Assembly (NCBI GenBank): GCA_025766275.1
Contig: JAFKAC010000180.1
Location: 1 to 64,000, forward strand
Source: Lactarius indigo
Lineage: Eukaryota; Basidiomycota; Agaricomycetes; Russulales; Russulaceae
Length of the DNA: 64,000 nucleotides
Direction: 5' to 3'
The notes beneath the pieces are model-generated. The model made no database searches, was not told the DNA's origin, and worked only from the letters and a program-made list of their open reading frames with translations. Each line of letters begins with the position of its first letter. Position 1 is the stretch's first letter. This document shows positions 3,692 through 55,909 of the stretch, one piece after another. The translations under genes were made by a program, and so were the position numbers.

Positions 3692-4796
3692 CGGGCCTGA
3701 GGAGGGATAGTGGACTATTGGGGCGAGAGGTGTGGTGGGCGGTGGTTGTATGGCTTCCTCCGGGACCTCAATTGAGGTGATGGAGGGGACAAGGGAGGTG
3801 CCTACAAGGTCGTTGACCGTGCGTAGGTCCTGGTCGTCCTCTTCATTTGTTAGCCCTGTGTGTGCGTTAGTGTGTGCTCGTTTTTGCTCGCTTTAGTGTG
3901 GGGCTTACTTAGGGGTCTCTTCCTGTTTTTCCTGTTTTCTGTTGCAGCGGTGGCAGGGCTGCTTGTCACGGAGATGCGGGCAGATTGGATTGTTGTTATC
4001 TTGTTGGGGGGTTCTTTGGTGGGGCGTTCTGGGGGTTGGGTTGGGTTTTGTGGTGGCTTGGGGGCGGTGGTGGCGGCGGCAGTGGGAGAGGGGGGTGGTG
4101 CGTCCATCGTTGGTAGCTGCGGGTGGTGGGCGGTCTTGTGGTGTTTAAATGTTCGTTGGGGGAGGGTCCTCGGAATGGGTGGTTCCGTCAGGGGTGCGTG
4201 TGGGTTGGGATTTGGATTAGCGTTGTTTTTAGTTTAGTTGTCGATTGGTGTACTTACTATGCGGTATGAGAGGGGTTGATGGTGGCGTTGTGCGTACTTG
4301 GGGTGACGGTTGTGGGGCGTGACGGTTTTGTTTGCCGGGTCGGTGTCGGTGTCGGGCTTCTGTTGAGGGTCCCAGGTGTCTGGTGGTGTTGTTGCTCTGC
4401 GTCGTCTGTGGGGGTTGTGTTTTGGTGGTAGTGGGGGTTCTTCCTGTTTATGAGTCATATTGGCAGAGAGTGTGGGTGTTCGTTGGTTGGGTTCTGGTTG
4501 GTGGGTCGTTTTGGCGGGCCCTTGGTTTGTTGGGGGGGGGGGGTGGAGTGTTCTCGTTCTTGCTCAGTTCTCTCAGTATGATTGTTGGTCTTTTTGACCG
4601 TGTGATGGTTGTATGAGTGTGTATTGTTACAGCAGGGCCGGTGGTATTCGGGGACTGGGATAGGGCTCATCTGCCATTGCAGCTTGCTCTTGGTCCTAGT
4701 CCGTCCTTGCCCCGGCTTTGCCGTGGGAATTCCGTTCCCTGGTGGTGGTTACGGTTCAAGGAGCCCCACAGGAAGACATCTCAGCCAATGGATAGT

Positions 4797-5440
4797 GGTG
4801 GCTTATGTAATTGATACCCCCAACCGACGGTGAGAATCTTCTGTAATTCATACTCAGCCGGCGCCGGCCGACGTCGGAGAATCCGACGTAATTGATAGTC
4901 CAACCGGTGCCGGCTGGAAGCGGGGTGTCCGCTTTTCGATTATTAGCATAAACAAGTCAATACATGACTCATTGTGATACATATTGGTGGCAGGAAGTAC
5001 AGGGAATGTGGATATATAAGCAATGACCAAAGGTTACTCCTGAATGGATGTTGGGGGATACCTTTACAGTATAACAAGTCCATAGGATGTATGGGGAGTT
5101 CGGATGAATTTTCAGTGAACCCTGAGCTTGACCATGAGTGTTCCAGGAGTAGGAACCAGTGGGTCTTGTCATTATTTGATTGAGGGTCATACTCATATAC
5201 AACAAAGAGATGTAGAAATACTGTTCAAATGAAAAGGGGTTTGAAGAGACTAACATATAAGTGCATCCAGCAGGGATATCCTCGATGAAATACACAACCA
5301 GTTTGTAAACAATTAGTTGACCAATATCCATATGGGTTCAGGGCACATCATTGAAGCTATGGGCGGACACTCCGCCAGCATGACTATATACATGTTTATA
5401 TCTATCTATTCATGCTCCAGATGTCAGGATGGACTTTAGC
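4797..5440 (+). repeat. Left terminal inverted repeat of KDZ element
   Basis: The outer 170 bp (4797-4966) match the reverse complement of 17574-17743 with only a handful of changes. Homology continues inward to about 5440 at visibly lower identity; for example GACAGGAAGTACAGGGAAT on the right aligns with GGCAGGAAGTACAGGGAAT on the left. It contains CGG-N5-CCG sites at 4875-4885, 4921-4931 and 5364-5374. Confidence 0.9.
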
Positions 5441-5503
5441 TGCACCCCGACCAGTATCCATATTCCTGTGAAGTGATCAGAAGTCTGGGGAAGGGGCTAA
5501 TTG

Positions 5504-7534
5504 TTAGCCACTAACCTGACCTTCTCTGAGACCTTGATAGTTCGTTTGATTTCTTTCCCTTTCCCTTTTGCTACATGAGGCTGATGGCCAACTTGCATTT
5601 CTTTCCATTGAAGCTGAGGAGAGTGTGATGGTCCTGCCATTTCTGTGCATTGATGAATGATTGGTGGTGCCGGATGTAATGTGGATAGGATGCAAACCTG
5701 GAAATGAAGATCTATTCATGCTCAGATAATCGTGTCCAGCAGAGGTGGGACTGGGACCTCCATCATCATCTACATGCAATGTTGTCATTGATAAGTTGAG
5801 GGTAACCCAATAACAATCGGACTCACCAGGACAAGCGTCCTCCTGTATATAAGACATATTCAAGGGTGGAGACCTCATAGCCACTTCATCCTCAGATGGA
5901 TCAGTCCTGTCAGATGAATCATCATTCCTGGATGAATCATCTGAAGAATCTTCAGCATCAGTAATGTCATCCTCCTGATCAGAGTCCCGACTAGCTGGAA
6001 GAATGAAGCACTCTTCATCAGATGCTGGTGATTGCTGCTTTCGAGCCCTTCGGACACTCCGCATAGGCCTTGGGGAATCTTCCAAATTACTAAAGAGTGG
6101 GGACGTTGATACCCACATCAAGGGGTCAATGCCTTTATCTTGCCTGTCACTCCAGTGGTACAGTAGACGAAAGACCTCTCCAATCTGGATCTTAGATGGG
6201 TCCTTCCACTCAAACCCATCTGGAATACATTCATCACGAATCCAGGAAGATGGATCCTTGACCAATGATCCCCATGGAATGGTCAGTGTTGGCTTTCCAG
6301 TGACATAACCTTATTCCGACATATTAAATACTGATACACATTTATTAAAAGAATGGCTTACGGATATGTGCAGTGCAATAATCCCTGAGCAATGACTGAA
6401 CAATCTTGGCTTTATATCCATGACGCTGAGTAACTGTCGGAAGCTCCGGACATCCATCTGCATCAAATACAAGGGGGATTGGGGATTGGATTGTCCTTGA
6501 GTTGTCCTTTTTTGGATGCTCCTGGACAGTCTCTAGAATGTACATGAATGATATTCACTCACTGGGATAAGAAGCTTGTCAAACCTTTTGCAAAGCACTT
6601 TAATCCAAATTGAGTCCACTGCTCCCAGAGGGCAGCACTCTTCCAGTCTGGGCAGAATTTCCGAAAGTCCTTTCCATCCTGCAATACACTGTTCACATCA
6701 TTGCTGAAATTGGTTTGCATCAATTGATGGTCAGTACAGATTAAGGATACATTTTTGGATGACTTACAAGCCAATCTTGAGGTTGTTGTCTTCACCCTCA
6801 TATGCTGTGAGAACAATGGAACGAATACCACATGTCTTGTAGAGTTGACTTTGAAAGTCTTGGATGATCCGCTCACGCATAGAAGATGCCATTCTGTATA
6901 GAAGAGATGAGAGAAATGGATCCAAGGTGATACATATTTGCGTACCTGGATTGAATATGCTTTGGTGGAGTCTTCTCTGACCATTCCTTAGCAGCATCTA
7001 CATACTCCCTTTGATCTTTAGGGGATACATCATTCCATAAAGCAGTGGTTGCATCTTGAAGGGCCCCCAGGAATGCGGGGTTCCCTGGCTCTGTCCCAGA
7101 GTCCTCCCTAGCACGCTCCAAGACTTCCTCACGGTGCAGGTGATAGAATGCATTCCTGGCAGACCATTTGCGAGTGAACTTGATATATTGACGCCTGGGG
7201 CGGATGTAGTGGTTATAAAACCATTTCTGAATTTTCTGAAATCTGAAATGAGCAATATATCCGTCACTGTATAAATGAAGCCCACCTTTGTGGCCACCTT
7301 CTTATCAAATGGTGCACTAGAAGGGCGGAGCAGATATAACTGGGCCATGGCTTTCTCAATTATCCTGGTACGAAGGCTTGTATCAGCAGCTTGGAACTCT
7401 TCAAGATATTCCTGCAATACATCTGCATCTTCAGGAGTAATGATAAATCCTGTGTCACCAGACTGTGCTCTTTGACTCTGTGATATCTCGGACTCTCCGC
7501 CAGAGCCAGAGTAAGTGATGTCCTCGTTCTGCAT
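5504..7534 (-). CDS. KDZ-element accessory protein, 586 aa, function unknown
   Basis: Six exons (7534-7286, 7235-6946, 6893-6768, 6703-6585, 6532-6362, 6309-5504) join in frame through introns of about 50-64 nt and give 586 residues. I chose the ATG at 7534; the frame upstream has only a non-ATG codon. The N-terminal half is a conserved-looking basic and aromatic block (KKIQKWFYNHYIRPR, FTRKWSARNAFYH, then QLYKTCGIRSIVLTAYEGED). I recognise this type from hypothetical proteins of mushroom genomes, but I do not know its fold. The C-terminal third is acidic and Ser/Asp-rich and looks disordered. It is transcribed away from the centre toward the left TIR. Being intact in an intact element argues for a role in transposition or element control, which is inference. 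Confidence 0.7.
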
Positions 7535-8580
7535 GGGGATATTAATCAAAGGTGATCAGAGGATATGGATACGGTGTGTGTGGATAGATATATTGAGCAT
7601 GAAGTAGTTTAAATACATGACAGTAGTTTGGTTGTGTTGGATCAGAAAACAAAATATGGACACTGGCAATCGGGATATAGTGAGGGTAAAACAGGGACAC
7701 ATAGGTTAATATATGTGGTAAGATAATATAACAGGTTTCAATGGGTTTGAATACGGATCTGGGTGAGAGGTGCCACATGACATGGATGGGAAATATGGAC
7801 ATGAATTATGGTTTCACATATGTTTCACGCATGGGCTAGATATGCTTGTACCTCAAGAGCGGACCTCCCGCTTTTGATGAATCGTGACAGCTATCTACAT
7901 GGAGAATAGGATGTATATCAATGAGAAATGGTACTGAGCCTATACATCAAGGAGGGGGTGTGAATATGATGCATGGCTTCACATATATTTCATATTTGGC
8001 TAGACATGCTTGTGCAAGGAGATCGTGCCTCCTGCTCACATAGTACATCATATGACGATGTCTCACCTGTTGCATCGGGGACCCCGACACATTGTACGTA
8101 TCAGATTCGGTCCTGCACAGCATGTCATCGATATTTCAGGTGTGTTGGGCCACCTGACATATCACGTGGCATTCTCCCATACATCCATACATCAAACTGG
8201 GGATCTGAAACATCCCATCTGTGGCACGCGTTTGATATGGACATCGTAGATAGTTCCTAGTGATTCATGCGGCAAGTAGTGTTTTGACATGGTCTGAACT
8301 AATATGTCATCAAGCGTATCTGATACGCCGGACCTCCCGACATGTACATATCACGTCATCTTAAGAGACAAAGGTAAATATCAAAGGTAAATATGAACAA
8401 AGGGACGTGGGAAGTCCGCATGTCAGACACGTTACATAACTGATGTATTTAATGGTTGCGGACACTCCGACATGGTACCAAATTGGTACCAAAATGGTAC
8501 CGAAACATGATCTCAATGCGTGATATTGTTACCGACACATGCAAGACGATCACAATACATGTGCTACATAGTTACAGTCC

Positions 8581-9528
8581 TTACTCCAAGTATTTCGCCA
8601 TATTCTCCAGATCAATCAAAGTCTTCAGGATTGAGTCATTGATTGCTTGAACTCGACCCCGCAGCTCTGTGAGCTCATCCCACACATCAGCAAGTGTCAG
8701 CTTGCATCTCTCAATCCTGGACTCGACGTTTCCGAGGTCCTCAGGGAGGGGAGACGCAGGGATGGTGATGCCCATTCGATGCTTGATTGTACGGGTGGAT
8801 GGGGGTATCCCCCCAGTTCGTGCACGAGGGGCGGACCTCCCAGCGGCCTTGACCATTTGTACAGATTAATAGAATAGTCGTATGTAATTGTATATACGTA
8901 CCTTGCGTTTCGGGGCGTCCGACTGCGATGGGGTGATTGCACGCTGAACAGAACTCCCTGGATCATCGACGTCCATCGTATCAGCTATCTGTGACTTTTA
9001 TATGATGCATCAGATAAGCTATAGACGATGGGTAATTATCACATACGCTCAGAGCAAGTCCTGCTGACGTTGGGGAACCTGTCGGGGCACCCGCAGTTGG
9101 AGCGTCACTTGGTTGATCATCAATAGAGATGATCTCAGGTGCTGGTGATACAGGCTTAGCGACCACAGTGGGTTCACGGATAACACGTTGTGAGAGTGGG
9201 ATGCGATCCATAAAGTCTTTGGGTGGAGAGGGTGTGCGCCTCTTCTTGCGCTTGCCATCATCCTATACAACACACTGTTAGTGCTGTCGAATATGTAAAT
9301 ACAGTTACGCACCCGCGGGGTATCCGAAAGACGTGGCCCAGATGGAATAGGTACGACAGGCGACGGTACCTTGGATAGGAATTCAAAGCCAGTGGACACC
9401 CCGGATGCTTCAGAACGCTGTTTCGATGGAGGGCCCATAGACTGAGGCTTTGGTGACGCTTGTTGAGACTGCGGGGTTCCCGCAGCTGCACGAGATCGCG
9501 AACGCGAACCACGAGAGGTATCAGACAT
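8581..9528 (-). CDS. KDZ-element accessory coiled-coil protein, 261 aa
   Basis: Four exons (9528-9313, 9262-9047, 8988-8902, 8847-8581) join in frame into 261 residues starting at the ATG at 9528. The N-terminus is Ser/Arg-rich (SRGSRSRSRAAAG). The middle is Pro-rich with a basic KRKKRR patch that could be a nuclear signal. The last 60 residues (IESRIERCKLTLADVWDELT onward) form a clear heptad-type coiled coil. No catalytic motif is visible. It is divergent from the zinc-cluster gene at 9788, with 259 bp between the start codons, which contain a CGG-N5-CCG site at 9660. Partnering with the divergent zinc-cluster protein through coiled coils is a guess. Confidence 0.6.
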
Positions 9529-9787
9529 ACTGGAGGGGTCTCTGTGGGATATTGGAGCTCGCCACCTGCGTAGATATATATCATATCTAGTCACCACAGT
9601 CATCGCTTGATCTTCGGATCAATCGGATATATATTTTCCAAATTTCCTAAATCAGATTTCGGGGTTCCCGGATACCAGAGGAGATCGATAATCAATAGTG
9701 GGACCCCCAAACGTTTCAAGGTGCTTCCGTCTGAGGCGCTTCCATCTGTGACTTCGCTATCATTCACATTAGACACCCCCACGCTCA

Positions 9788-11525
9788 ATGGGTAGGAAAG
9801 GCCCATCCGAATTGACAAAGCATGAAGTTCAGTTGCTCACCATAGCAGCTAAGTTCATGGCTGCCATGAAACGTGTGGAGGAGACTGGTCCGTCACCAAT
9901 GGAGCTGGACATAATGGATACAAAGATCAACCAAGAAGTGGTGAGTCGATTTAATATCCTCAACGCATATGCGATGTATCTAATGGTATGCTATTCAGAG
10001 AACCATTAATTCGATATTTGCAGGCTATGGGATACATTCCAAGACCCCCCGTGTCCATCCGATCATCCAGGTCATTGGGACCGAGTGGCAGTCAGCTGCA
10101 ATAGAGGACCGCTACCCTGATTGGTTCATACTAACAACTGAATACATTACTACGCTTTGTGAATATGTATCGTCGGAGAACCCGGACTGGCACCTCAAAC
10201 TCTCATCCCTTGATCTGAACTCATATCTGGATGGCCTCCATCCGAGCAAGATGTGGTGGCTCGAAGAGAACACCATACCACAGATGCCCTCAGAATGTGT
10301 GTCAGATATATTGTATCGATTCATACCTATTCACATCCTCATGCACAGCTACAGTTGACAATCTCCCATCCCAGTCGTCGTCTTCACGATTGACACTTGC
10401 CCCTCCTTCCGCCTCCACGGACCCCCCGGAACCCCCGGACCCCCCAGCCACCCCCCCACCCGTACACAATACACGAGGCACAGTAAAGGCACGTGCCATA
10501 CAGACACGTTCGTCGGACCGCCCGGCCGATGCTCCATCCAAACGCCACACTGCTCCATATGCGCTGCGAGGAACGAAACGCGATTCACCGGGCAACCCGG
10601 GAGAAGCATCCGAAACGGTCCCACATCAGAACCCCCCCGTTCCACGTGTCGAAGTGGAGCAGGCATCTCCCCCTCGACCCACACAACGTCAGCGTACGGA
10701 TGCTGGTGATATTGTTGCCTATGGGAATGTAAGTATTCTTATTCCATCCTCCTGCATCCAAATAACGATCTGATGTATATGTGCACTACTTGTAGGACCG
10801 CTGTGGCCCCTGCATCCATTTTGGGGATTCTGAATGCAAAGCCCAGGCCAATAAGCGGTCAATCGCATGTGTGAAGTGTGCGCAGAGGCACAAGCCATGT
10901 GAACCCCCTGCGACGTGGGCCATCCCGCTGCATCGTGCAATGGAGGCCAGATCAACACCATCGATGGGAGCGGGGTCCCCGGGTACGTCCCACCTGTTTT
11001 CTGCAAGCGTAAACGAAACCCACATGCATCACACACCTAGTAGGAAGCTTCGGGGACTCCCGCGTTGATGCACTGGAGCGCAAAGTGGAGTCATTGACAT
11101 CGAAACTTGGTGATGTCACTCAGACAGTAGACCGTGTGCTATTTGAGGTCGTAAACACACGCCAGGATTCGCATGACACACGGCTTATGGTTGGGAAACT
11201 CCTGTCTCACCAGGGTATCGAATCGACATCGATTCCTGGTGTCGGGATGCCCCCCACCAATCGTCGCTCAGTATCCCCTGGTGTCCAGTCGACCTCATCA
11301 GTTGGAGCACATATGTCTGGCCTCACTCTCTCTGACATTCGGCCTCCTTCTTCCCTTTCAAGTGCACCCCCAAGCCGCTCTCGCCAACCATCAGGTAAGC
11401 ACTTATATCATCTGAATCGGAAACACAGGCTCATCCACATTACAGGGGAGAGCGTTGCCTCAGGGGGACGTCTGACCCCATCTGGAATATCTGGTGGGTC
11501 ATCATCGGCTGGTCCTGTGGCTTAG
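9788..11525 (+). CDS. KDZ-element zinc-cluster (Zn2Cys6-like) coiled-coil protein, 482 aa
   Basis: Six exons (9788-9940, 9999-10296, 10349-10728, 10796-10982, 11044-11394, 11446-11525) give 482 residues in one frame. The N-terminal 150 residues include a helical region and a folded-looking block (IGTEWQSAAIEDRYPDWFIL). A Pro-rich linker follows. At about residues 279-312 lies a six-cysteine cluster, CGPC...C...CVKC...C, with spacing C-X2-C-X7-C-X10-C-X2-C-X6-C, close to the Gal4-type Zn2Cys6 pattern. About 30 residues later comes a heptad stretch (DALERKVESLTSKLGDV) like the dimerisation coil of Zn2Cys6 factors. Unlike classical members, the cluster is not N-terminal and its first loop lacks the usual basic residues. 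DNA binding to CGG triplets is therefore plausible but unproven. Confidence 0.7.
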
Positions 11526-12366
11526 AATGGAGTGTTTCTATTTAAATGATGTATACTATTCTGTAAACGCATGTTCGGGAGGTCCGGCCCATTGAGGGTC
11601 GAAATATATGATGTGTCAGGACTGTTTGCATGTGACCATATCAACGTAATAATCACCATGTGATCCAGTGACTAAGGGGCCTTCGTTTCGAATATATGAT
11701 GACTTGTATTTGAAGCAGGCGTGATACGTGTGATGTGTCGGGGTCCCCGCTTCTATGAATAGGAGAGCATCATGTGGTATTGGGGGATACCTGATGACGT
11801 GTCGTGTGGGACTGTATCTAGATTTACATTTTCCATATGCAACAGTTTGGGGTCCCTGTATCAATGTATGATGGGAAGGTGTCATGTGATGTGTCGGGAG
11901 GTCCGCTCAATTGGATATGCTGATTGAAGCGTTGTGTGGGACTGTATTACAATTGCTACCTGGTACACATAAAACATGTTTTACATATGCAACAGTCCAG
12001 AACCCTGCTTCAATATGTTTGTTATTTCCTTGTGGTATATCTGAAGGTCTATGTGACATCTGCATCAAACAATCAAATATATTTGTTACAAATATGCGTA
12101 CAGTGTGGCGGGGACCCCGCTGTAATGCATGGGATATCCGTATGTGGTTTGGTGGGTATTGTGATACCTGTATTAGATGTAATGCTACAGGGATTCGCGA
12201 AACACGTATGGGAGATAGTTGTGCGATTAGATGGGGAGTCCGGCATGATACTAGATGGCATACACAATGCTCCTACATATGAGGCAAACATGTAACTGTG
12301 TTCCACACATGATAGTTCAATTAGGGGATATTTATACCGTGTAACAGCTAGACTACATTATACACC

Positions 12367-12974
12367 ATGCAGCCATCCACATCCAAAGTAAAACGTATGC
12401 CCTCCATTTCAGGTACTTCCATGAATATTCACTAATTGCCACTATCCCAGGAACCCACCATAAGAATCAGAAAACCCACTTGAGGGATAGGCGGACTCCC
12501 CAAGCATACTCCAAACATCCACCCACCATGTTTTCCGATCCAGTTGATAGCTCTTCCTCCGATGCAATGTCATTTGATGAAGATGACATGTATGGATCAG
12601 ATTCTAATGCTGAAACCATTAACCTGAAACCTGACTCCATCGAACCACATTCCCCTGCCCATGTGGACCATGCAAGTCTGCCCAATGACCATATGGTATG
12701 TACACGATAATATGGAACCACTTAACATGTCTGACATGGTCAGGAGCATGCAGACCTCATATTGGAGACAGAGGAGATGTGCATGGATCTTAAGGATATC
12801 TCCCTTATGGTAAGGGCACTATGTGAAACAGAGGGAATCAATATGTCACAAACGACAAGTGAAACACAAGATGGACAGTATCAAGGTCACTCCCCACATG
12901 CATCAGAGATGGCATCAGGATCTGAAGGTGTTGATAATGGTAGCGGTAGTTTCGGAGCACCCGAAATGACATAG
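12367..12974 (+). CDS. KDZ-element small acidic protein, 173 aa
   Basis: Three exons (12367-12412, 12451-12695, 12744-12974) join to 173 residues from the ATG at 12367. After a short basic start (STSKVKRMPSIS) the protein is rich in Ser, Asp and Glu. A central helical segment (LILETEEMCMDLKDISLMVR) precedes a Gly/Ser tail. No known domain is recognised. It lies about 210 bp upstream of the transposase in the same direction. Its last exon contains a CGG-N5-CCG site at 12953. The three small models depend on predicted splicing, so the start is less certain than the rest. Confidence 0.5.
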
Positions 12975-13183
12975 AACAGATGATGGTATTCCTATCAGAT
13001 ACACTCCACAGTTTCAGATTAGAATTGGGTACACATTCTTCAGGTGTATGATTGTGCAGCGAGCCCAATATTCCAATGTGTAGAATATCCAAGGTGTTGT
13101 AAATGTATTTAATGCGTGAAAGGATTGATGCTGTCCCAATTGCTATCATCCATATCCTCCTAACTCCATTGAAACTGTCTATC

Positions 13184-16100
13184 ATGCCTCGCAAGAACAC
13201 CTTTACCATTCCTATGGGAGATGTCTCTGAGGTTGTCTCTAAAACATCAAAGTCTAAGCGGGGACTCCGAACCACTGTGAAGGAGGTCCCATTCCATTCT
13301 TCAAAGCAGAAGAAGTCAGGCCAGGCTTCAAACCAAGCTACAATAGTTGAGGAGCAGTCATCCAAGCAACAAACGCAGGGGGTTCAGGAGTCACATACCC
13401 TTCAACCCATAGAACCATATGAAGCTGACATGCAAGACCTTCAACTTGATGACACACAACCCCAACCACATGTATGCGACACAATACCCTTCATCATCCA
13501 TCAAATACTGATCATTTACAGACACCATTGCGGACACATATGGGCCAATGGATAGACATCCGGAGCAGATATCTTCACCTGTTACTAGAGATGGAGGGTT
13601 TGACAAGGGCCCCAAAATGCTCCATGTGCACCATGTCAATGCAGATCAAGTGTTCCGACTGTGTTGGAGGTAACTACTTTTGCAAGGAATGTTGCCTTCA
13701 AATACATACAAGATCCCCATTCCATCGGATGTCCCGCTGGACTGGCACACACTTTGCACCAATATCATTAATATCAATTGGATTTAAGCTCTGTTTGGGT
13801 CATGATGGAAAGCCATGCCCACTTACAGTAGAGGTATGAATACATCAGTCCTATGAAATGTCATATGCACTTATCTATACCCAGGGAGTTCAAGCAGCTA
13901 AAGAGCCACAGACAAGCAGGCGGAGGTCCCGACACACTCGGTCTACATCACTAATATCTGTTGAGGAGGAGCAGGCCCATTCCTCGGGAGGCCCGCAACC
14001 TCCTTTGCAAGCTCTTGAGGATATGCATGGGATTTCAGACACATTGTATGACTTTCCTGGGGATGTGTTGGATCCCTCTGAGGGAAACACAAGACGCACA
14101 CGGACCGCAAAGTCAGGCAATCCACTGATCACAATTGTCAATCAGACAGGTGTCTTTGATATGGATGTACTCTTCTGCATATGCCCCAATGCTGGTGCCG
14201 ATGATGAGCAACTACTCCAAGCTGGAATATTTCCTTCAACCTTCAAGCAGATTGAGACTGCATTTACCTTCTCAGTTCTGGATGACTTCTTGGCTGACAA
14301 CCTGGAGTGCAAGACAACTGCACAACAGTACTACTCTAAGCTTCAGAGCATCACCAATCGGATGTTCCCTGACCATGTCCCAGTATGTTACAATGCCATC
14401 CCAGCACCACATACTGTATCACTGATAAACATTTACAGAATCTCTACAAACAGCTCTTGAGAGCATCCAGGCAATGGCGAGATTTAAGGAATAGGATTCA
14501 GAATGGTCTGGGACATCTCCAAGTCGGGGACCCCGCTAATGATGGATCCATGGCCATATTCTGTCCAGCCTGTCCACAGCCAGGTATCAATCTACCTGAT
14601 GATTGGAAGGACAGATATAATGATGAACCGTATGCATTCATTAAACATGTCAAATATCCCATTGTTGACTTGCTCAAAGGAATCAGCTCATCCGAACATT
14701 TATAATGGATGGTAACTTCTCAGCAGAGCATATGAGATGCAGAACTGGGGAAGCGGACGTTCCGCTGTCGGCAGGGATGGCCTTCATGGCAAATCCCAAT
14801 TCATATAAGGCTCACCTGCATAGTGGGCAAGAGATTTCCCAGGTATGTCAGATACTATTGACAGTGACTGTTGTCTTATATTCTCATAGCCCAGCACATG
14901 TAACACATATAGGGCCATTGAACAGGCCAATTCAAGTCGTCCACACCTTGATGTTACAGGCATCGGGGCAACCGCATGCTGTCATGGATTCTTTGTCCCT
15001 ACATCTGTAGTTGACTTCCAGAAGGGAGAGAGGTATGTCCAATGTTTAAAGACTCTAGGTGTGGATATGACATCGCTCTTATGCTAGGCAAATAAATATG
15101 GACTATAGCCTTTGCAAGGCCCTCTCCTACAACATGGAGGACATCCCTGTGGCCCTGGTTATGTATGACATCATGTGCCAATATGGTGTCCACTTCAGGG
15201 AAAGGGTGGAAAAGAGCCCAGAGTTATCTCTGTCTAGCTCTTTACAACTTCGGACTGGGATTGGCCTCTTTCATATTCATGGCCATCAAGATTCATGCTT
15301 ACCCCGCTTTTCACCAAGCTATATTCCTGGAGCGAAGCAGGTGGATGGGGAGATCATTGAGACATTGTGGGCACCACTCAATAATATCTCACGGAGTATC
15401 CGCGGGATGTCCCTGGCCCATCGCCAGGAGGTCTTGGATGCACACATGAACCATTCCAATTGGAAGAAGATGGTCCGCATTGGTCTGTCACATCCATATC
15501 CATGCTACATTCTAATATAATAATCCATGTTCCAGTTCCATCACTTCTGAAGTGGTGGAAGCGCATGGAAACTGGAATAGATCTCAGTGCTGAGACATTC
15601 AATACACTCAATGCACGCTTCAGGAAGAAGACCAAGCGATGGCTTGAGGCAGAGAACCATGCTCAATCTAACAGGTATGAAGACCCTACTTTAATGGACA
15701 TATATGATACAGCATCATCCAAAGGTATTGTTACCCAATAAACCAATCTATTCTACACTGATGAATATCATTAGCTCCCTCTCGTGCAGAAATCCAGCAA
15801 CAACTGATTTCAGAGGAAAGTAGAGATATTACTACTCATGGGCAAACATCTTGGATTTCTTGTGGGATAAAGATTCAGGAGCTACAGTTGGTCCCTTCAA
15901 TGGTATATGTGACTGTTGGCTGATGTCCTGTGAAGACTGGCCATCAGATATCAACTACGGGCATATGGTCCAAAGATCAACACAGAGGAGGTCCAAGTCA
16001 TTGAAAATAAGCGGAGTCGCCTCCAGAAGCTCATTGACATATTTGAGCATCAGGGAGATTCTTTCCTCCTCCAACAGAAACTCACAGATGATTCCCCAAT

Positions 16101-17054
16101 ATCACCATTGGGTAATTATGAAGAGTACGACCATGTGGATGATCTCGGACCTCCCGATAATACAGATGACAATCATTCAGGTCATGATTTCCATCATCAC
16201 ACTCATCAGGCATTGGATGGATCTGGGATGGATGGCATCAATCCAGAAGATCTTCCCATTCTTCTTCCCTCATCCCTTGGATGGGAATGGTGTGTCAAGC
16301 ATGGAGCCCAATCTCTTGCCAGGAAGGAGGTACAGCTACGCCATGCACAAGCCAGTGATTCCATTCACAGGATCCGCCTTGCCCTTGGATTCAAGTCAGC
16401 TCTGTTCCGCACTCAGGTTAGACCTGCTAACACACAGCAGACAAAGACCCGTGCTTGGAATGCCATACACAGTGTTGATACTACTGTCCATGAGCATGCA
16501 CGCATATACAGCATGGCACGTGATGCATACCGGAGTCTCCGACAGGCATCAATGAATCTACAGGACCTTCCAAGATTACGTGCAGAGGACTTCCATGTAG
16601 CAACCTTGGTTCTTGGATCAGAGCCAATAGGACAGCGTAACAAGCAAACATCCTGGATCTGGGGGTTTGGCCACACTGTTGAAGATGATGGAACATGGAT
16701 GGATGATTGTAGGTTCTCATATTCATCAGTGCTTATATTGATGGACTCAATTATTTAACAGTTGAAAGGGTTCATTGGCTCCGTGCAAGGGCACAGTTTG
16801 AACGATGGTTGGAGGAGCAGCACAGCATCCATAATGAAGCTGAATGGGTCCCTGCATACTTCCATGCCAAGGCAAAGATGTGGAAGAAGCTCATGACCAT
16901 TGCTGCACAGGATTCGCTTAAGGGGCACCAAGCATATGCATCATATCAGATGCATGCATGGGAAGAACTCTCCAGAAGCTCAGTTAAGGCCCTCACCCCA
17001 ATCACAGATGCTCCATTAAAGCATTGTAAAGTTAAATCAATCCACTTGTTCTAA
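13184..17054 (+). CDS. CxC2/KDZ transposase, intact, 1114 aa
   Basis: Eleven exons (13184-13471, 13522-13833, 13885-14382, 14439-14629, 14680-14842, 14890-15032, 15088-15482, 15536-15724, 15775-15886, 15948-16708, 16762-17054) sum to 1115 codons with no stop. The N-terminus holds a CxC2-type cysteine cluster (CSMC...CSDC...CKEC, then FHRMSRWTG), typical of basidiomycete KDZ transposases. The catalytic region has MDGNFSAEH (first acidic residue), GIGATACCHGFF, YDIMCQYGVHF (second), the FHIHGHQDSCLPRF block, and DGEIIETLWAPLN (glutamate). The C-terminal half (VHWLRARAQFERW, WEELSRSSVKAL) is the usual helical tail. In the family this enzyme cuts and pastes the element at its inverted repeats. 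At least seven CGG-N5-CCG sites lie inside the exons. The stop is immediately inside the right TIR. Confidence 0.88.
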
Positions 17055-17109
17055 CACATGCATTCCCATTATTTTACATATGGATAGATATCAGTTCTTT
17101 GCAGGATAT

Positions 17110-17743
17110 CCATACTCTTATGTTAATATATTCAGATGGATAGAAGTATGTATATGGTGACATTGACGGAGTGTCCGACTCTGCTACAATCATAGATCCA
17201 CTGGACACATATGGATACCAGCCAATGCAAGGTGTATTCTTGGGTATATTAGCTGGTTAGGCACCGAGTCATGTCCATTCATGAGGGATGGTATCTTCCA
17301 ACCCCTTCACATTTGTATAGCCTTTCTATATCTATTCATTCTATGTGAATATTACCCTCAATCAAATAATGATCACGACCACTGATTCCAACTCCTGGAG
17401 TAGTAAGGACTTATTACAATTTCATCCAAACTCTCTAAACATCTTATTGACTTGTTTCACAATCAACAGACCATAAAAGCATACCCCCACATCCATTCAC
17501 TGAGTTCCTTTTGTCGTCCCTTGTATATCCATATTCCCTGTACTTCCTGTCACTAATATGTGTTACTATGAGGCATGTTTCGACTTGTGTGTGCTAATAA
17601 TCGAAAAGCGGACACCCCGCTTCCAGCCGGCGCCGGTTGGACTATCAATTACGTCGGATTCTCCGACGTCGGCCGGCGCCGGCTGAGTATGAATTACAGA
17701 AGATTCTCACCGTCGGCTGGGGGTATCAATTACATAAGCCACC
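17110..17743 (-). repeat. Right terminal inverted repeat of KDZ element
   Basis: This is the partner of 4797-5440. The outermost 170 bp are nearly identical; the inner 460 bp are recognisable but diverged. CGG-N5-CCG sites at 17167-17177, 17609-17619 and 17655-17665 mirror the left-end sites at the same distances from the tip. The transposase stop codon lies about 55 bp inside. Confidence 0.9.
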
Positions 17744-20231
17744 GCTGATCATTATGTGGACATCTTGGCTCATTCACAGACATAACCTTGGGCGTCCCAG
17801 GCTGGCCGGGCCGCAGAGAACCAGTCCCTTATCTTCTCTGTCGCAAAATTCGGGAAGGGGGTTATAACGTCTTATAATGATTTAATGTAATGTAATTTTG
17901 CTGGAACATTGTAACCATTATAAGAAAGCCTGGCTTCTGATAATCAGCTTTGTAATTATACTTGTAAGTTGCCTTATTAAGTGATTATAAGGCCCAATGG
18001 ATCATGTCATTTATTATAAGAAACACTTAGTATTACCAGATCGATCACGATTATAATGTATGATTCCATTATAATTCTCCTTACAAAATCAACTCCCTTT
18101 CTGATAATTCAACAAGCTATGGCCCGGGTTGCTAAATCATAAAAATTACATAATTTATTTACAACCTTTTTTTGTTGGTCAATGAAGGGGAAGGTCGATG
18201 AGTGAAAGGGCACATGCCCCAGTCTGCATGTACCATCTCCTTATTCCTGCCCCATACATATGCAGGGGGAGGGGGAGGGCACCTGCACCTTTCTGTATGT
18301 CTCCCATTCACGCATCGCCCCTGCAAGCTGACCAGTATGCCACACCTGTGTTTGTGCGCTGGTGCTACGCAAGCAAAAAGCAGAGGGGGCATACCCTCTG
18401 CCACACTTCACACGGCCCCATGTTCATGTATTGCACAAGAGCAGGGGAGGGGGGGGTTGCTATTGTAGACATGGGTTCCTGTCAGCATGTCAATGGGAAG
18501 GGAAAGGAGAAGACGTACCACGGTGCAAAAAGGGTTTGTATGTCCCGTTCACTGTGCACTACTCTTAGCACGCACATGATCCATGGCAAACAAAAACCTA
18601 GCTCCGCATCTCGATGAGTTGTGGGAGGTAGTTCCGACTCCGGCAGCAGCTTTAGCTTCTTGAAGCCACGCTCACAAGGCTCGTTGAGGGTGAGATGGAT
18701 GATAGCACCAAGAGGAAGAGAGACGCAGTCAAGCCCAACTGAGAAGAGCCATTCTCTAGCCCCTATGCGCGTGACGTCGAAAGCGGCACCACCAACGAAA
18801 CAGATTAAGACTTGTACGGCAACCTCTGATGGAAGATTTTAGCCATGCTACACAAACTCAGACGAGAGGACACACCGGTGGTGATGACGGCCATGAAATA
18901 CCGATTCTTCGACATGCCTTCCAACTTTCAATCCAGCCATTGGCAGTTGAATGAATTGAAGATCTGCGCGAACATGAACATATTGAAAACAAGTGTCTGC
19001 ACAATGTTGTTGTGGTGTTTGCACGCCTTGTTGTGGTGAGGTGGGCACAAGGGGAAGTGGGTGGGCGTCCTAAAAAAAACAAAAAAAAGGGAGGATCCTC
19101 TGTACATCGACAGAGGTGGAGAGGAGAAGAAAACGGACATGATATGTGTGCGCTGCCTTTTGTGGTAGATAGATGGGTGGGGAGTCCTTAAAAAAAAGGG
19201 GGGGGAGGGAAGGGTCCTCATCTGCATATCAATGGTGCAGGAGAAGGGGGAAAGAAAGGCACATACGTCGGGGTGCAAATGTGGGGGGTAACAAAGAAGT
19301 GGGTACTACACAGTGGGTAATACACTCGGAAGGGAAGGCTGGACGACGTTGAATTCAAACTTGCTTATAAGCTAGCCACCCTGAAAACATGGCAGGTTTT
19401 GATGCTATCTAGGGCTGCGAACGTAGGGGGAGTGACAGAAGGAGGGAGGGCATGTGGAAGGGAGGGAACTTGAGTTGGGGTACAGAAGAAAGTGTCGCAT
19501 TCGAATCCAAACTTGCTTACCAGTGCTTACTAATTGCATTCCTTTTTGAGAAACTAGCCACCCTATAGTAGATTGCTCCGCGCTAAGGGCCAACAAGATA
19601 TATCATTAGCAGAGTGAGATGTACCATAACATGGTGTCAATACTTGCGCATCCAAGGTGTTGCAAATAGTCCAGGAAGAGAACCCCAAAGCTTCCCAATC
19701 CTGAACAGCAAGTGCTGATAGTTGATCCTGGCGCTCACGTGCAATGTCAAGTGTGTAATATTAAGCACCCAGAAGCGCCTCGGCAAGTCGTTCAGTAATA
19801 TGAATCCCTCGGGTTGCTCACACCTTCACTATGTGTAAAACGGAGAGAACAGAAACTGCGCATCATACAGTGTGCGTAAAGGCTAGGTAGCGCCGTCTAC
19901 CTGAAACGCAGCAAGCTGTTCGATAAGATCGACAGCTTTCTCAACCCGACCATATGTCGCATTCAGCCTAATCAACTCCCGGGTAGATTCGTTGCCATTC
20001 ATGCCCATGAGGACGGAGCCCCAATTCTCACAAGGACCGAGGATGGTGAGGGCTTGATCAAGAAGTGCGACGGTTTGTAGAAAACTAAACCGGAAAGGAT
20101 ATCTCACGTTTCAGATGACTCTGTCTCTCAATGTCCGAGTCTAATAGATCAACTAAACTAGACAGAACTCTAGGAGTCTATTGGTGAGGGAACAGGTACC
20201 ATTCTCTTATTAGTGGCTTTTGTCATTGGTT
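17744..20231. other. Intergenic: AT-rich TTATAA-repeat block and low-complexity DNA
   Basis: 17839-18170 is AT-rich with many TTATAA/ATTATAAG words and begins TGTCGCAAAATTC, a 13-mer that recurs inverted at 51661-51673. 18200-19600 holds G-rich low-complexity DNA, A-runs, and two or three diverged copies of a segment of roughly 60 bp (near 18470, 19100 and 19210). A 74-codon minus-strand open frame (19883-20107, with LLDQALTILGPCENWGSV) looks helical and might be an exon of a lost gene. I cannot assign it. No other coding signal is convincing. Confidence 0.5.
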
Positions 20232-23854: not shown

Positions 23855-25742
23855 ACAACTCCCAACACACCCAAGACACTACTGCCACACAGCAGAGTGG
23901 GCGACGATCCAAGGGGACGCATCAGCCAACAACCAGACACTCCACAGAACCCAGAAACGACGGCACAGCCGGGCGACGGATCCTCCTCGACACAAGAGGC
24001 CGCTTCAGCCATCCCCTTACACAAATCAGCACCCAAGACAAACCACAATCGTGGCTAGCATCAGTGTCACCTTTGAATCAGACAACGATTGGACCCCAGT
24101 CACAACCAGAACACAAGACGACCTCCCACACCACGTTAAAAGCAGTCAACTAGGAAAAGGAGCTCGCTGGGCCACAACATCAGGCAGACCACCTTGTTAC
24201 AAGTGCCTCATCAAAGGCGAACTCAGACCAGTGGAATTCATCAACAACAACTGGTACATCCTCCGATACTTTCAGAACACATACCACACCAGAGCCATAA
24301 ACATCACACCACACAGATTTGCTGAAGGACTAGGCTGGTGGAACGAAGAAGACGAACAGAACCCAGAAACGCCCACACAACAATCATCCTCAGCACCAAG
24401 AAACACTAGGGGAACATACGGACTACAACAAGACTCATCAGAAGAAGAACCCAGCTCAGACGAAGCGGAATCACACTCAGAACTATCCCACTCCTCAGAA
24501 CACCGCCTAGACATCACAGTACCCACACAAGCTTCGTCACAAGCCAGCCCCACTATCCCTATCTGGATAGAACCATCCCCAGCGGAAGAAGGATTCCCAG
24601 CCCCACTACCACCAATCAGATTGCCCTCCCCAGTCGAACCACCCCAGATCCCCATCACACCACAGCCAACACTTATCATGTCAGCCATAAATGCCACAGG
24701 CACTGGCACAGGTACCGGCTCAAGCACCGGAACAGGAGGAACACCAACAACGAGCTCAGGAGGACTCAAAGGAGCACCTCCTACTCCGTTCACCGGAGAT
24801 AGAACAGAGAGTGGTCAGTTCAAAAGAGAACTACTACGATACATCAAGTTAAATAGCGAGAATGAACTCATCAAAGAACCTTATGCACGGGTACTATTCG
24901 CCCTTACAATGTTCAAAGGACCTGGTGTACAGCTGTGGGTCAACCAAACCGAAGATGATATGGAAGCGGCACTAGCAGACCCCACCAAAGCCCTCACCAA
25001 AAACAGCAAAGATCTTTGGGACGGTTTTCTCGACACCTTCGACAGAGACTGGACCGACACTCTAAACAAAGAAAGAGCCTACCAGAAGCTCATCAGTCTG
25101 ACGATGCAGGGTGGAGCATTGGACAGTTACATCCTCGACTTCGAACACCTTGCAGGAATAGCAGGATGGGCAAGAGATGCCCCTGGAACGGTGGAATTCT
25201 TTAAAAGAGGACTACCCACAGGACTGTATCGTGCTTGCCTTATGCGAACCACCATCCCAAACACCATGGACGAGTGGCAAACCGCTGCCAGAGCAGAACA
25301 CCAACGCTGGAAGCTGTTAAAAGCCAGACCGGGGAATAGAAACCCAGGGCCAACCCAGAATGTCCACCAAGGACGACCAAAGCGAGACCCAAACGCGATG
25401 GATGTAGATGCCACCACCTCCACCCCCTTTAAGAAGCTTACTGAAGAAGAAAAGAAAGCCCTCATGAAAGAAGGACGCTGCTTCAAATGCAGACAGCAAG
25501 GACACATGGCTAGGAACTGTCAACGACAAAACACCACCAACCAAACCAAAGCCAGAGCCACAGACACTCAAGAAGCGGACACTGCACCCCCATACACCCC
25601 AGAAGCAAGCACCTCATTAGTGGCTGCCACCACAACCGAAGATAAAGTCCGACAAGCCCATGCACTCGTCCAAGGCATGACTGAGGATGAAAAGAGACGC
25701 TACTATGCCTTAGATCAGGATTTTTGCGATGCCGACCTGTGA
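23841..25742 (+). CDS. gag: Element C Gag (capsid-nucleocapsid), no ATG at N-terminus
   Basis: The frame is open from the LTR border to the TGA at 25740. The first ATG is only at 24678; a GTG at 24051 in the context ATCGTGG would give 563 residues. The N-terminal part is acidic and Pro/Ser-rich. The capsid region (GAPPTPFTGDRTESGQFKRE, about residues 240-260, through LWDGFLDTFDRDW) is the retrotransposon gag core. The C-terminal part carries one CCHC knuckle, CFKCRQQGHMARNC. It packages the element RNA. The end overlaps pol in the -1 frame. See the finding on the ATG-free leader for the start problem. Confidence 0.85.
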   Translation, partial: HKPSLQLPTHPRHYCHTAEWATIQGDASANNQTLHRTQKRRHSRATDPPRHKRPLQPSPYTNQHPRQTTIVASISVTFESDNDWTPVTTRTQDDLPHHVKSSQLGKGARWATTSGRPPCYKCLIKGELRPVEFINNNWYILRYFQNTYHTRAINITPHRFAEGLGWWNEEDEQNPETPTQQSSSAPRNTRGTYGLQQDSSEEEPSSDEAESHSELSHSSEHRLDITVPTQASSQASPTIPIWIEPSPAEEGFPAPLPPIRLPSPVEPPQIPITPQPTLIMSAINATGTGTGTGSSTGTGGTPTTSSGGLKGAPPTPFTGDRTESGQFKRELLRYIKLNSENELIKEPYARVLFALTMFKGPGVQLWVNQTEDDMEAALADPTKALTKNSKDLWDGFLDTFDRDWTDTLNKERAYQKLISLTMQGGALDSYILDFEHLAGIAGWARDAPGTVEFFKRGLPTGLYRACLMRTTIPNTMDEWQTAARAEHQRWKLLKARPGNRNPGPTQNVHQGRPKRDPNAMDVDATTSTPFKKLTEEEKKALMKEGRCFKCRQQGHMARNCQRQNTTNQTKARATDTQEADTAPPYTPEASTSLVAATTTEDKVRQAHALVQGMTEDEKRRYYALDQDFCDADL

Positions 25743-28700
25743 GAGCTGACAGGGAGGCCAATTCAATGTATAGTGTTCACGATAGTGCTATGACAATCAA
25801 AGTCCTCGTTCGCCTTTACTACAAAGAAGCTCGCATAAATGTGCTGCTGGACAGCGGTGCAACAGACAACCTAATCGACCGAAACCTGATCCAAAAACTT
25901 GGACTAGGAACCACTCCTCTGAAACCACCCAGATTGGTCCGGAATGTAGATGGATCGCTAAACAAAGATGGCACCATGACAGAAACATGCCAGCTATGGA
26001 TAAAAAGAGGAGAAGAAGAAACTCCCTTCCAGTTTTTCGTAACCAGCCTAGGGGAAGACAGAATGATCTTTGGATATCCCTGGTTCGAACACGAAAACCC
26101 AGACATAGACTGGAAGAAACAAGAGCTGAAAGGAGAAGCCGTCACCATCCTGACAGGAGGGTACCGCTTCCGAAGAAAGCGACACCAAGAAGCGAAAGCG
26201 GCAGCAACCAAAACAACCTTTGACCCAGTAAAAGAAACCGCCATCCCAGAAGAATACCAGCGCCACAACAAAGTGTTCTCAGACGAAGAAGCACAGCGCT
26301 TTCCCCCAGAAAGAGAAGAAGACCATCCTATCACATTGCGACCAGATGCACCCAACAAGATCAATTGCAAAATCTACCCCTTGACTCCAGAAGAAGACAA
26401 GGAGTTGAAGGCATATCTCGACGAAAACATAGCAAAAGGATACATCTATGAAGGAAGCTCCCCCTACGCTTCCTCCTTCTTCTTCAGAAAGAAAACAGAC
26501 GGAGGGTTGCGCCCTATCCTGGACTACAGACCCCTAAATACCTGGACAATAAAAGACACTTACCCACTACCTCTCATCTCCGACATCCTGACCAACTTAA
26601 ATGGGAAAACACTGTTCTCAAAGTTCGATATCAGATGGGGGTACCATAACATCCGCATAAAAGAGGAAGATCAGTGGAAGGCAGCCTTCAAGACACCAAG
26701 GGGGCTGTTCATCCCTCGAGTCATGACCTTCGGCCTCACAAATGCACCAGCCACCTTTGCAAGAACCATGAGCAGAATACTTCGACCGCTTATGGACAAA
26801 TACCCGAGAGAGCTATTTGTGTACATGGACGATGTCCTGATAGCCACAGAAGAAGATACAGAACGCCACAGACAAATTGTACACGAGTTCTTGGAAATCT
26901 GTGAAAAGGAATCTTATTTCCTTAAAGCGTCGAAATGCGTGTTCGAACAAAGAAAGATCCACTACCTAGGCATTGTCATCGATGGGTCTCAAATCAAAAT
27001 CGACCCAAAGAAAGTAGAAGGACTAAAAGACTGGCCAAGAGACATCAAGTCAGTCAAACAAGCAAGAAGCGTGTTGGGGACACTAAGTTATCAGCGACCC
27101 TTCATCCCCAACTTTGCTCACTTAGCAAGACCCATCACGGACACAATAAAGACATCAGAAGGACCCTTCAGATGGACAAAGGAAGCAGCAGAAGCCTTAG
27201 AAGCTCTCATCACGCTTGTGTGCAAAGACCCCATCTTATGCCAACCAGATATGGACAAACCTTTCGAACTAGAAGTAGATGCCTCCGCTTTCGCCACAGG
27301 GGCAATCTTAACACAAAGAGACAGCCGAAACAAACCACAAGCTGTGGGATACTTCTCCAAATCATTTTCCGAAGCGGAGCGCAACTATGACATCCATGAC
27401 AGGGAACTCCTGGCAGTAATCAGAGGACTAGAACACTGGAGACACCTTCTTTTAGGGTCCCCCCACGAAATCACAGTGTTTACCGACCACAAAAACCTAG
27501 AATATTATCGCCACCCTCGACAAATCAATAGGAGAGTGGCGCGCTACATCCCCAGACTTGCAGACTATCACATCAAACTTCACCACAAACCCGGACCCCA
27601 AAACCATGCTGATGCCCTGTCAAGACGCCCTGACCACGACGCCGGAGCAGGAGATAACACCGATGTAGTGGTCCTGACCCCAACCATCTTCGCAAACTCC
27701 GCTCTCTCCATAAGAATAGATGACCGGGTCATGGCACACCAATTAGACCACCAAGACACTCTGGACGAGTGGGCCACCCCCTTCCACCTAGTAAAACAAG
27801 GCAAACACTGGTGGAGAGGCGACAAACTGGTGGTTGTGGACAACACACCGCTAAAGAGGGGGGTAATTTCCCTGTTTCATGATACAAAAACAGCTGGACA
27901 CCCTGGAATAACAAAGACCTTGTGGTTAGTGTCACAAGACTTTTGGTGGCCAAATATGAAAGACGACATATCCGCATATGTAAAGGGCTGTGCCACATGC
28001 CAATCAAACAAGAACTTCCCTGGGAACCCGAAACCACCGATATTCCCCATCAAGACTAACCCAGAAGCACTCCCTTTTGAAACCATCGCTCTAGACTTTA
28101 TCACAAAGCTACCCCAATCAGAAGACAATGACACAATTCTCACCATCACGGATCATGACTGTTCCAAAGCAGCCTTCTTTATCCCATGCAGTGAAACAAT
28201 AGACGCAGAAGGAGTGGCAAAACTCTATGCCAAAACTGTCCTGCCACACTATGGACTACCAAGAAGGGTCATCTCCGACAGAGACCCCAGATTCACAGCG
28301 AAGTTCATCAAAGAACTGTGCAGAGTGCTTGACATAGAACAAAACATCAGCACAGCATACCACCCACAAACAGATGGACAATCAGAGCGAACAAACCAGT
28401 GGTTAGAACAGTACCTCCGAATGTTCATAAACCATCAACAAGACAATTGGACGGAGCTACTACCACTGGCACAGTACACCCACAACTCCTGGCCAAGTGC
28501 AACCACTAAAAAGGCACCCTACGAATTAATTCTTGGGTACATCCCAAGAGTACACCAACCAGAAAGAACGACCACAGTGCCAGGAACACAAGAGAGATTG
28601 GAGCGAATCCAGGAAGCCAGAAGGACCGCCCAAGCAGCAATTACCCATGCACAGTCACTCTACAAAGGATCCTCTCGCTTCGAACAACACACAGAAGGAG

Positions 28701-55460: not shown

Positions 55461-55909
55461 TTAGGCCACCATCATCAGTATTCCAGTCGGATCACGGGTA
55501 ATTTATAATTACCTCCTGTATAGATCATCATGTTCAGCTTCCGCATCCTTGTATTACATTTCTTTCTTACCGTCTGTCCCTACACCACGATCGTATCTTT
55601 CTGAGTACCATTCTTGATAATGCAACTTACATACTATCATACAAATGTCAGTTATCGCTTTCGTCCATTGAAAATATTCATTCTCTCACGTCCTAAACAG
55701 CGCATCAATTCTCCGTCTCTGGTCAGAAAATATCGCATCCTTCGTACATGATCCTTTGCCTTGTTAGTCCGCATTCATCCTTTGTGATAGTGTGTCAATA
55801 GATGAGAAAATACCCAGAAAGATAAACCTCTTACCTCTCATGATTGTCGGTTGTACTCACTCCGAACTGTTGGTATAATAAATCAACAAAGAACAAACGA
55901 ACACGGCTT
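55461..55909. other. Intergenic, nothing recognised
   Basis: AT-rich DNA between the minisatellite and the 3' end of the GTPase gene. I see no ORF, repeat or hairpin worth naming. Confidence 0.5.

Follow-up and report, generated by a model that had tools for sequence, protein, structure and literature searches.

The window analysed here, i.e., positions 1 to 64,000 of contig JAFKAC010000180.1 of Lactarius indigo (assembly GCA_025766275.1), contains a KDZ-type DNA transposon, element A, which is studded throughout with the spaced palindrome CGG-N5-CCG and carries, upstream of its transposase, a gene for a protein with a Zn2Cys6-like core (Table 1). Element A has the KDZ transposase domain, which scores above the Pfam cut-off, and the CxC2 cysteine cluster expected in a KDZ transposon, and its two terminal inverted repeats (TIRs), whose limits are approximate, are 81% identical across 470 columns of a blastn alignment. 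No clear target site duplication (7–8 bp expected) was seen by eye at the flanks of this copy. An earlier reading of the letters, below called the original prediction, had taken 4875–17665 for the whole element; this is correct as the span of the motif, but the element itself is larger and reaches from TIR to TIR.

Table 1 Features of element A; positions are those of the window
Feature	Position	Strand	Basis
KDZ-type DNA transposon, family A, TIR to TIR	4794..17746	.	blastn of both ends; CxC2 and KDZ Pfam matches inside
Left TIR, CGG-N5-CCG at 4875 and 4921	4794..5250	.	blastn of ends, motif count
Right TIR, CGG-N5-CCG at 17609 and 17655	17291..17746	.	blastn of ends, motif count
Array of 39 CGG-N5-CCG	4875..17665	.	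motif count, simulations, per-site frame listing
Gene for proposed reader protein, ~486 amino acids, six exon pieces, splice joints approximate	9788..11522	+	
Zn2Cys6-like core, C-X2-C-X7-C-X10-C-X2-C-X6-C	10802..10900	+	seven-family profile and model comparison
Predicted long helix after zinc core, likely coiled coil	11064..11220, end approximate	+	AlphaFold model of homologue P0001
CxC2 cysteine cluster, KDZ-transposase-associated, PF18803	14104..14361	+	Pfam E-value 4.7e-20
KDZ transposase domain PF18758, profile positions 98–217 of 217	15086..15460	+	E-value 2.4e-29, 103 bits, cut-off 26.6
Minus-strand accessory gene region, frames 5507–6310 and 7001–7555	5507..7555	-	no Pfam family above cut-off

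A recount reproduced the predicted number of palindromes, 39 CGG-N5-CCG starts within 4875–17665, with 53 in the whole window. The counts at neighbouring spacings and in the background, which had been proposed as checks, came out in favor of the array: other spacings from N0 to N20 occur 0–3 times each in the same interval (N4 0, N6 1), and CGGRNNNYCCG occurs 4,762 times in the 90.3 Mb assembly, i.e., 0.68 times per element length. Markov simulations of element A gave means of 0.80 (first-order) and 0.69 (second-order; 100 runs each) with maxima of 3 and 4, in agreement with the predicted chance expectation of fewer than two. As had also been described, nearly all array sites fit CGGRNNNYCCG (38/39; the sole exception, at 14964, is CGGGGCAACCG) and the spacer bases vary, albeit with G or C at base 5 in 32 of the 39. 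The remaining 51,033 bp of the window hold 14 N5 copies, a single one of which, the isolated copy noted before at 35802, has the R..Y form, and the neighbouring retroelement has no such array. The sites are evenly distributed along the element (Kolmogorov–Smirnov p = 0.93), and their reported spread over TIRs, spacers, introns and exons is seen in their placement, with coding frames assigned by hand: six lie in exon frames of the zinc gene, seven in the CxC2/KDZ gene, five in minus-strand frames, four in the TIRs and 17 elsewhere. At 10418–10437, in a proline-rich coding part of the zinc gene, two CGG-N5-CCG overlap, 9 bp apart; at least one other A copy (L009, L013) has three overlapping sites there, as if a coding repeat had grown from the site.

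A tblastn search with the KDZ core yielded 149 matches in the genome. Their identity and frame length served to assign them to families A to G, family A being the element of the window with 15 copies at ≥98% identity. One locus was read per family: A as a whole, 15.5 kb of B, 16.5 kb of E, and 8 kb each of C, D, F and G, lying ahead of or extending into the KDZ core. CGG-N5-CCG was found 39 times in A, 16 times in B, twice in F, and not in C, D, E or G, and a motif universal to KDZ elements was rejected on these counts. The original prediction would have counted as refuted by related KDZ elements that have an intact transposase and lack the palindrome, and taken literally this is what C, D, E and G show, with F at two copies; yet each of these five families has an array of some other CGG-core word, and the case thereby gains in specificity. 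The word TCGGAC occurs 65 times in E and 2–9 times in other families, TCGGCA 39 times in F, 36 times in G and 0–6 times in others, and ACGGA 55 and 42 times in 8 kb of C and D, compared with 8 and 5 in 8 kb of F and G, 13, 19 and 24 in the 13–16.5 kb of A, B and E, and 39 and 48 in control stretches of 23.1 kb. Second-order simulations gave 0.9 for the 16 sites of B, 9.3 (maximum 18) for the 65 of E, 3.5 for the 39 of F and 4.0 for the 36 of G. The motif classes are AB, CD, E and FG, with little cross-occurrence. Further 3-kb loci also bear N5 sites, 118 in 14 A zinc loci and 96 in 16 B zinc loci.

These arrays are centred on CGG. Bases flanking CGG are non-random in all seven families (p = 3e-11 to 6e-23 at the best position; 0.04 and 0.2 in two control samples), and the signal survives removal of near-identical flanks (4e-9 to 3e-15). 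In A, C, F and G, none of the 64 triplets ranks above CGG or CCG. The joint leaders in E are TCG, CGG, CGA and CCG, all parts of TCGGAC; in B and D, where four A/T triplets and TTC/GAA, respectively, rank first, CGG still figures among the highest. Its ranks of 56, 62 and 63 in three control stretches are biased low by the membership of these stretches in the control set, which also included eight small loci retrieved by means of the motif. Tandem units of 38, 16, 23 and 14 bp in E are mutually dissimilar, and all contain TCGGAC; the family word is present in 6/8 Tandem Repeats Finder (TRF) rows of E, 4/5 of C, 2/5 of D, 2/2 of F and 2/3 of G, some of which overlap. Chance or composition as the source of the array was rejected on the Markov controls, the spacing counts, and the flank and triplet controls.

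A six-cysteine, Zn2Cys6-like frame lies upstream of the transposase in all seven families, and the six cysteines are its only invariant columns. Zn2Cys6 clusters have the spacing C-X2-C-X6-C-X5–12-C-X2-C-X6–8-C, which the A core matches except for X7 in the first loop. The PF00172 score is 20.4 bits for the F core, below the gathering score of 21, and 10.9 for E, and the cores are therefore named Zn2Cys6-like and not filed as PF00172 members. Zn2Cys6 proteins make up all seven PDB sequence matches from the seven-family set, and Zn2Cys6 domains 25 of the 26 PDB fold matches to a model of the D core. The proposed reader protein of A has 32 Lactarius homologues across much of its length; AlphaFold modeling of the whole reader gave no confident zinc core, Foldseek with that model returned 60 matches, none below an E-value of 1.6, and phmmer with the F core against the PDB returned none. 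In homologue P0001, a helix is modeled at 343–395 with a predicted local distance difference test score (pLDDT) of about 48–76. Weak Pfam matches (spectrin, dynein AAA_8, FlaC, DUF1660 and similar) were disregarded. The gene travels with the transposase: a zinc match is followed within 20 kb on the same strand by a KDZ core in 12/14 cases for A, 24/26 for B, 7/9 for C, 17/20 for D and 17/18 for E (77/87 pooled), and in 32/49 for the F/G type, counts that drew on 134 of the 149 KDZ rows.

Some further observations concern the zinc cores themselves. In families C, D, E and G, it is the second half that holds the more basic loop, and Zn_clus matched crosswise, i.e., the first half of F to the second half of the profile and the second half of E to its first, a pattern that would result had the two halves changed places compared with Gal4-type clusters. 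At the left margin of the E locus, the minus strand has a further zinc-cluster-like frame (L071:1273, C112:449155), 40% like the F core. A zinc core resembling that of G, its match containing one stop, is present at L077 (C261:219828-227827) and in similar matches on C159, C213, C290 and C258, none of which has a KDZ core within 20 kb downstream; the prediction that any locus with such a core would carry a CGG array was not borne out at the non-KDZ locus L077, where CGG ranks 54 (two of four sub-windows).

An alignment of A against copy C1 of B covers 15 of the 39 A sites, of which five are kept, and 5 of the 16 B sites, all five of them kept. Changes from A affect 15/90 half-site positions, 16/45 spacer positions and 109/438 flanking positions. 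Across the KDZ region of 15 A and 15 B copies, a site is present in both families at five positions, in A only at three and in B only at one; one more shared site, near 13985, dropped out of this comparison through alignment gaps. The KDZ cores are 95% identical between A and B, 93% between C and D, and 96% between F and G, with E at 90% to C and D, and A–E at 63–67% to F and G. Zinc core identity to A is 50% for B, 35% for E, 29% for D, 25% for C and 15% for F. The zinc protein changes fastest, and the closest relatives share a word. How a site can reside in a coding frame is illustrated by the peptide RSIRGMS, which includes a site in A (CGG AGT ATC CGC) and B (CGG AGC ATC CGT) and lacks it by codon choice in D (CGC AGC ATC CGA).

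The families also differ in gene content. PF12851 (TET/JBP) has 39 matches in the genome, 36 of them downstream of an F/G-type zinc match and 36 upstream of a KDZ core; the F and G elements encode a TET/JBP dioxygenase. The CpG observed/expected ratio of KDZ loci is 0.49–0.69 (the remainder of the window has 0.96), a depletion in keeping with methylation, and 81 of the 372 CpGs of A fall in sites. TET/JBP-bearing KDZ transposons were reportedly described by Iyer in 2014. In the passages of PMC12730594 drawn on here, TET/JBP is known from Kyakuja elements, those of Russulales included, and is taken as an escape from methylation.

Given the array, its family specificity and CGG centring, the Zn2Cys6-like gene that travels with it, and the TET/JBP gene in F and G, we infer with a probability of roughly 55% that the element-encoded zinc-cluster protein binds the family-private, whole-element array as a means of self-recognition that counters silencing. 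The zinc core and the long helix behind it would form a dimer on CGG half-sites, and dimer binding of inverted CGG triplets would account for the fixed 5-bp spacing; in A and B, such a dimer would sit on CGG-N5-CCG, and in E, F and G half-sites would probably be bound singly. Because sites occur throughout the element, the protein would form a coat on this element and on hardly anything else; the coat would be a family-specific mark of self that counters DNA-methylation silencing and permits expression and movement. In sister families, diverged readers would be paired with other CGG-core motifs, each favoring its own word (CGG-N5-CCG over N4 or N6 for A, TCGGAC for E, TCGGCAGC for F), and in F and G the local effector could be the TET/JBP dioxygenase that the element itself encodes. 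The suggestion of the original prediction that a protein reads the body-wide array thus gains indirect support, from the family-specific CGG-centred arrays and from the Zn2Cys6-like frame upstream of each sampled transposase. It had put forward self-silencing control, copy marking, chromatin looping and counting as roles; the role favored here, by analogy, is self-recognition for anti-silencing. More tentatively, and at somewhat below even odds, fungal KDZ elements may have arrived independently of plants at a lock-and-key arrangement in which the reader of each family group and a matching whole-body CGG-core array, accommodated in exons via codon choice, exempt their own family from methylation, in F and G via TET/JBP, and in which their co-change would give rise to mutually blind lineages.

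Several results weigh against self-recognition by the zinc-cluster protein. In the alignment of A with B, CGG and CCG are kept in 8/14 and 7/14 cases in A sites and in 10/24 and 15/28 outside them, with no sign of extra constraint, and our confidence is held at the stated level because of this comparison. Word and zinc protein both track the descent of the whole element, transposase included, and this shared descent does not separate the zinc protein from the transposase as reader. The arrays of C and D are the weakest, with 55 and 42 words against 21.4 and 22.1 simulated (maximum 34 each), and no TRF row of A (0/2) or B (0/10) contains the site in tandem. The A, B, C and D cores have no PF00172 match, A being below Pfam Zn_clus detection, and the individual fold and sequence matches are weak (best E-values 0.37 and 0.11). 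In A–E, a TET match lies within 20 kb downstream of only 2/87 zinc matches, and no TET/JBP gene of their own was seen. Finally, the loss of motif CpGs (14–23%) does not differ significantly from that of other CpGs (14–21%) in any of four copy sets (the A_zn set comprising 12 of the 14 A zinc loci); such equal decay fits silenced copies and gives no support to standing protection.

The last two results also speak for the best placed, if still unlikely, alternative, namely that the zinc-cluster protein does bind the array, but only to regulate the element's genes as an ordinary transcription factor would, or as a repressor that copy number titrates, with no direct anti-methylation role. Zn2Cys6 proteins are in general classical transcription factors on CGG sites, as is Pho7 in the part of PMC5559640 drawn on here, but the even spread of sites over the whole element, exons and TIRs included, exceeds the needs of promoters, and C–G have tandem arrays. 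Reading of the array by the KDZ transposase or the CxC2 cluster, for synapsis or end recognition, is improbable: it would suit the sites in both TIRs and a transposase tree that also matches the motif classes, yet end recognition needs no body-wide sites, the C, D and E transposase cores are 90–93% alike despite the different words of C/D and E while their zinc cores diverge far more, and CGG is the classical Zn2Cys6 triplet. There is little to recommend a host zinc-cluster factor, exploited by the element or used for silencing, as the reader; mushrooms have numerous host Zn2Cys6 factors, according to the part of PMC7295025 drawn on here, but different words per family group within one nucleus and a zinc gene that travels along fit element-encoded readers better. 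An artefactual origin, through base composition, decay of CpGs or growth of repeats, deserves next to no weight, since the signal, although KDZ loci are CpG-depleted and thus of different composition and E and C copies are partly tandem, outlasts Markov controls, a single spacing, varied spacers, removal of near-identical flanks and control triplets, and CpG loss would be expected to destroy sites.

Each of the families A to E has relatives of frame 7001–7555 of the minus-strand accessory region at its element loci; the 138 matches listed for this frame include none on the contigs from which F and G were read (C95 and C68). The adjoining retroelement (24051–30604) has long frames with reverse transcriptase, RNase H, integrase and chromodomain, and is classified by us as a long terminal repeat element of the Ty3 type; a second retroelement fragment (35801–37621) has a Tf2-1 SH3 domain and a chromodomain. 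At 53334–55462, a tandem array of a 70-bp unit repeated 30.6 times (also 139 bp, 15.3 times, 92% matches) overlaps an open frame at 53587–55464.

Among the literature searched, where titles and abstract starts of the first 8–20 entries of each listing were covered, none described a zinc-cluster reader or an array of motifs for KDZ elements, and no paper on transposable elements of the L. indigo genome turned up. VANC was the only comparable system in that literature; a second, unrelated one in fungi would, if our reading is correct, mean convergent evolution of element-wide address arrays against DNA methylation. One genome would then offer four natural reader–motif classes for the study of zinc-cluster specificity and spacing switches, a so far unnamed KDZ gene would acquire a testable role, and transposon-borne TET/JBP a possible targeting partner.

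The Kyakuja elements (Kojima 2025, PMC12730594) resemble the present ones in their KDZ transposase, in TET/JBP as in F and G, and in their occurrence in Agaricomycetes including Russulales. The families in the passages used are without TIRs, whereas the TIRs of element A are long and A–E showed no TET/JBP of their own; those same passages contain no motif array or zinc-cluster reader and no occurrence of the word 'zinc'. The proposed readers share with Gal4, Ppr1, Put3, Leu3 and Pho7 a six-cysteine core, a long helix behind it (in A), and CGG half-sites with protein-specific spacing and flanks. Pho7 reads TCG(G/C)(A/T), which resembles the E word and, from the part of PMC5559640 used, provides a precedent for a TCGG-core site. 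They differ from Gal4-type proteins in that their cores fall below the Pfam cut-off, with X7 in the first loop of A, and in having tens of sites in a mobile element instead of a few in promoters.

The closest parallel is VANC of the Arabidopsis VANDAL transposons, where, in the parts of PMC5735166 (Hosaka 2017) and PMC10398659 (Sasaki 2023) drawn on here, a protein encoded by the element binds short motifs specific to its family, many of them arranged in tandem, and the element loses methylation. Both systems combine a fast-changing element-encoded protein beside a conserved transposase with family-private short motifs; VANDAL motifs are often tandem and differ between related elements, as here in C–G, not in A or B. 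VANDAL is a plant Mutator-like element and KDZ a fungal one, the proposed KDZ reader is Zn2Cys6-like, and F and G have TET/JBP. Pfam scans of three zinc-gene frames of A gave no family; no direct comparison with VANC (DUF1985/DUF287) was made. VANC sites are non-coding (for VANC21) in what was available of that work, whereas 13 of the 39 A sites lie in coding frames, and the KDZ system is thus an analogue of VANC, not a member. Binding and demethylation have been shown, in those same parts, for VANC only; by analogy, the comparison favors the view that the KDZ arrays would serve self-recognition for anti-silencing.

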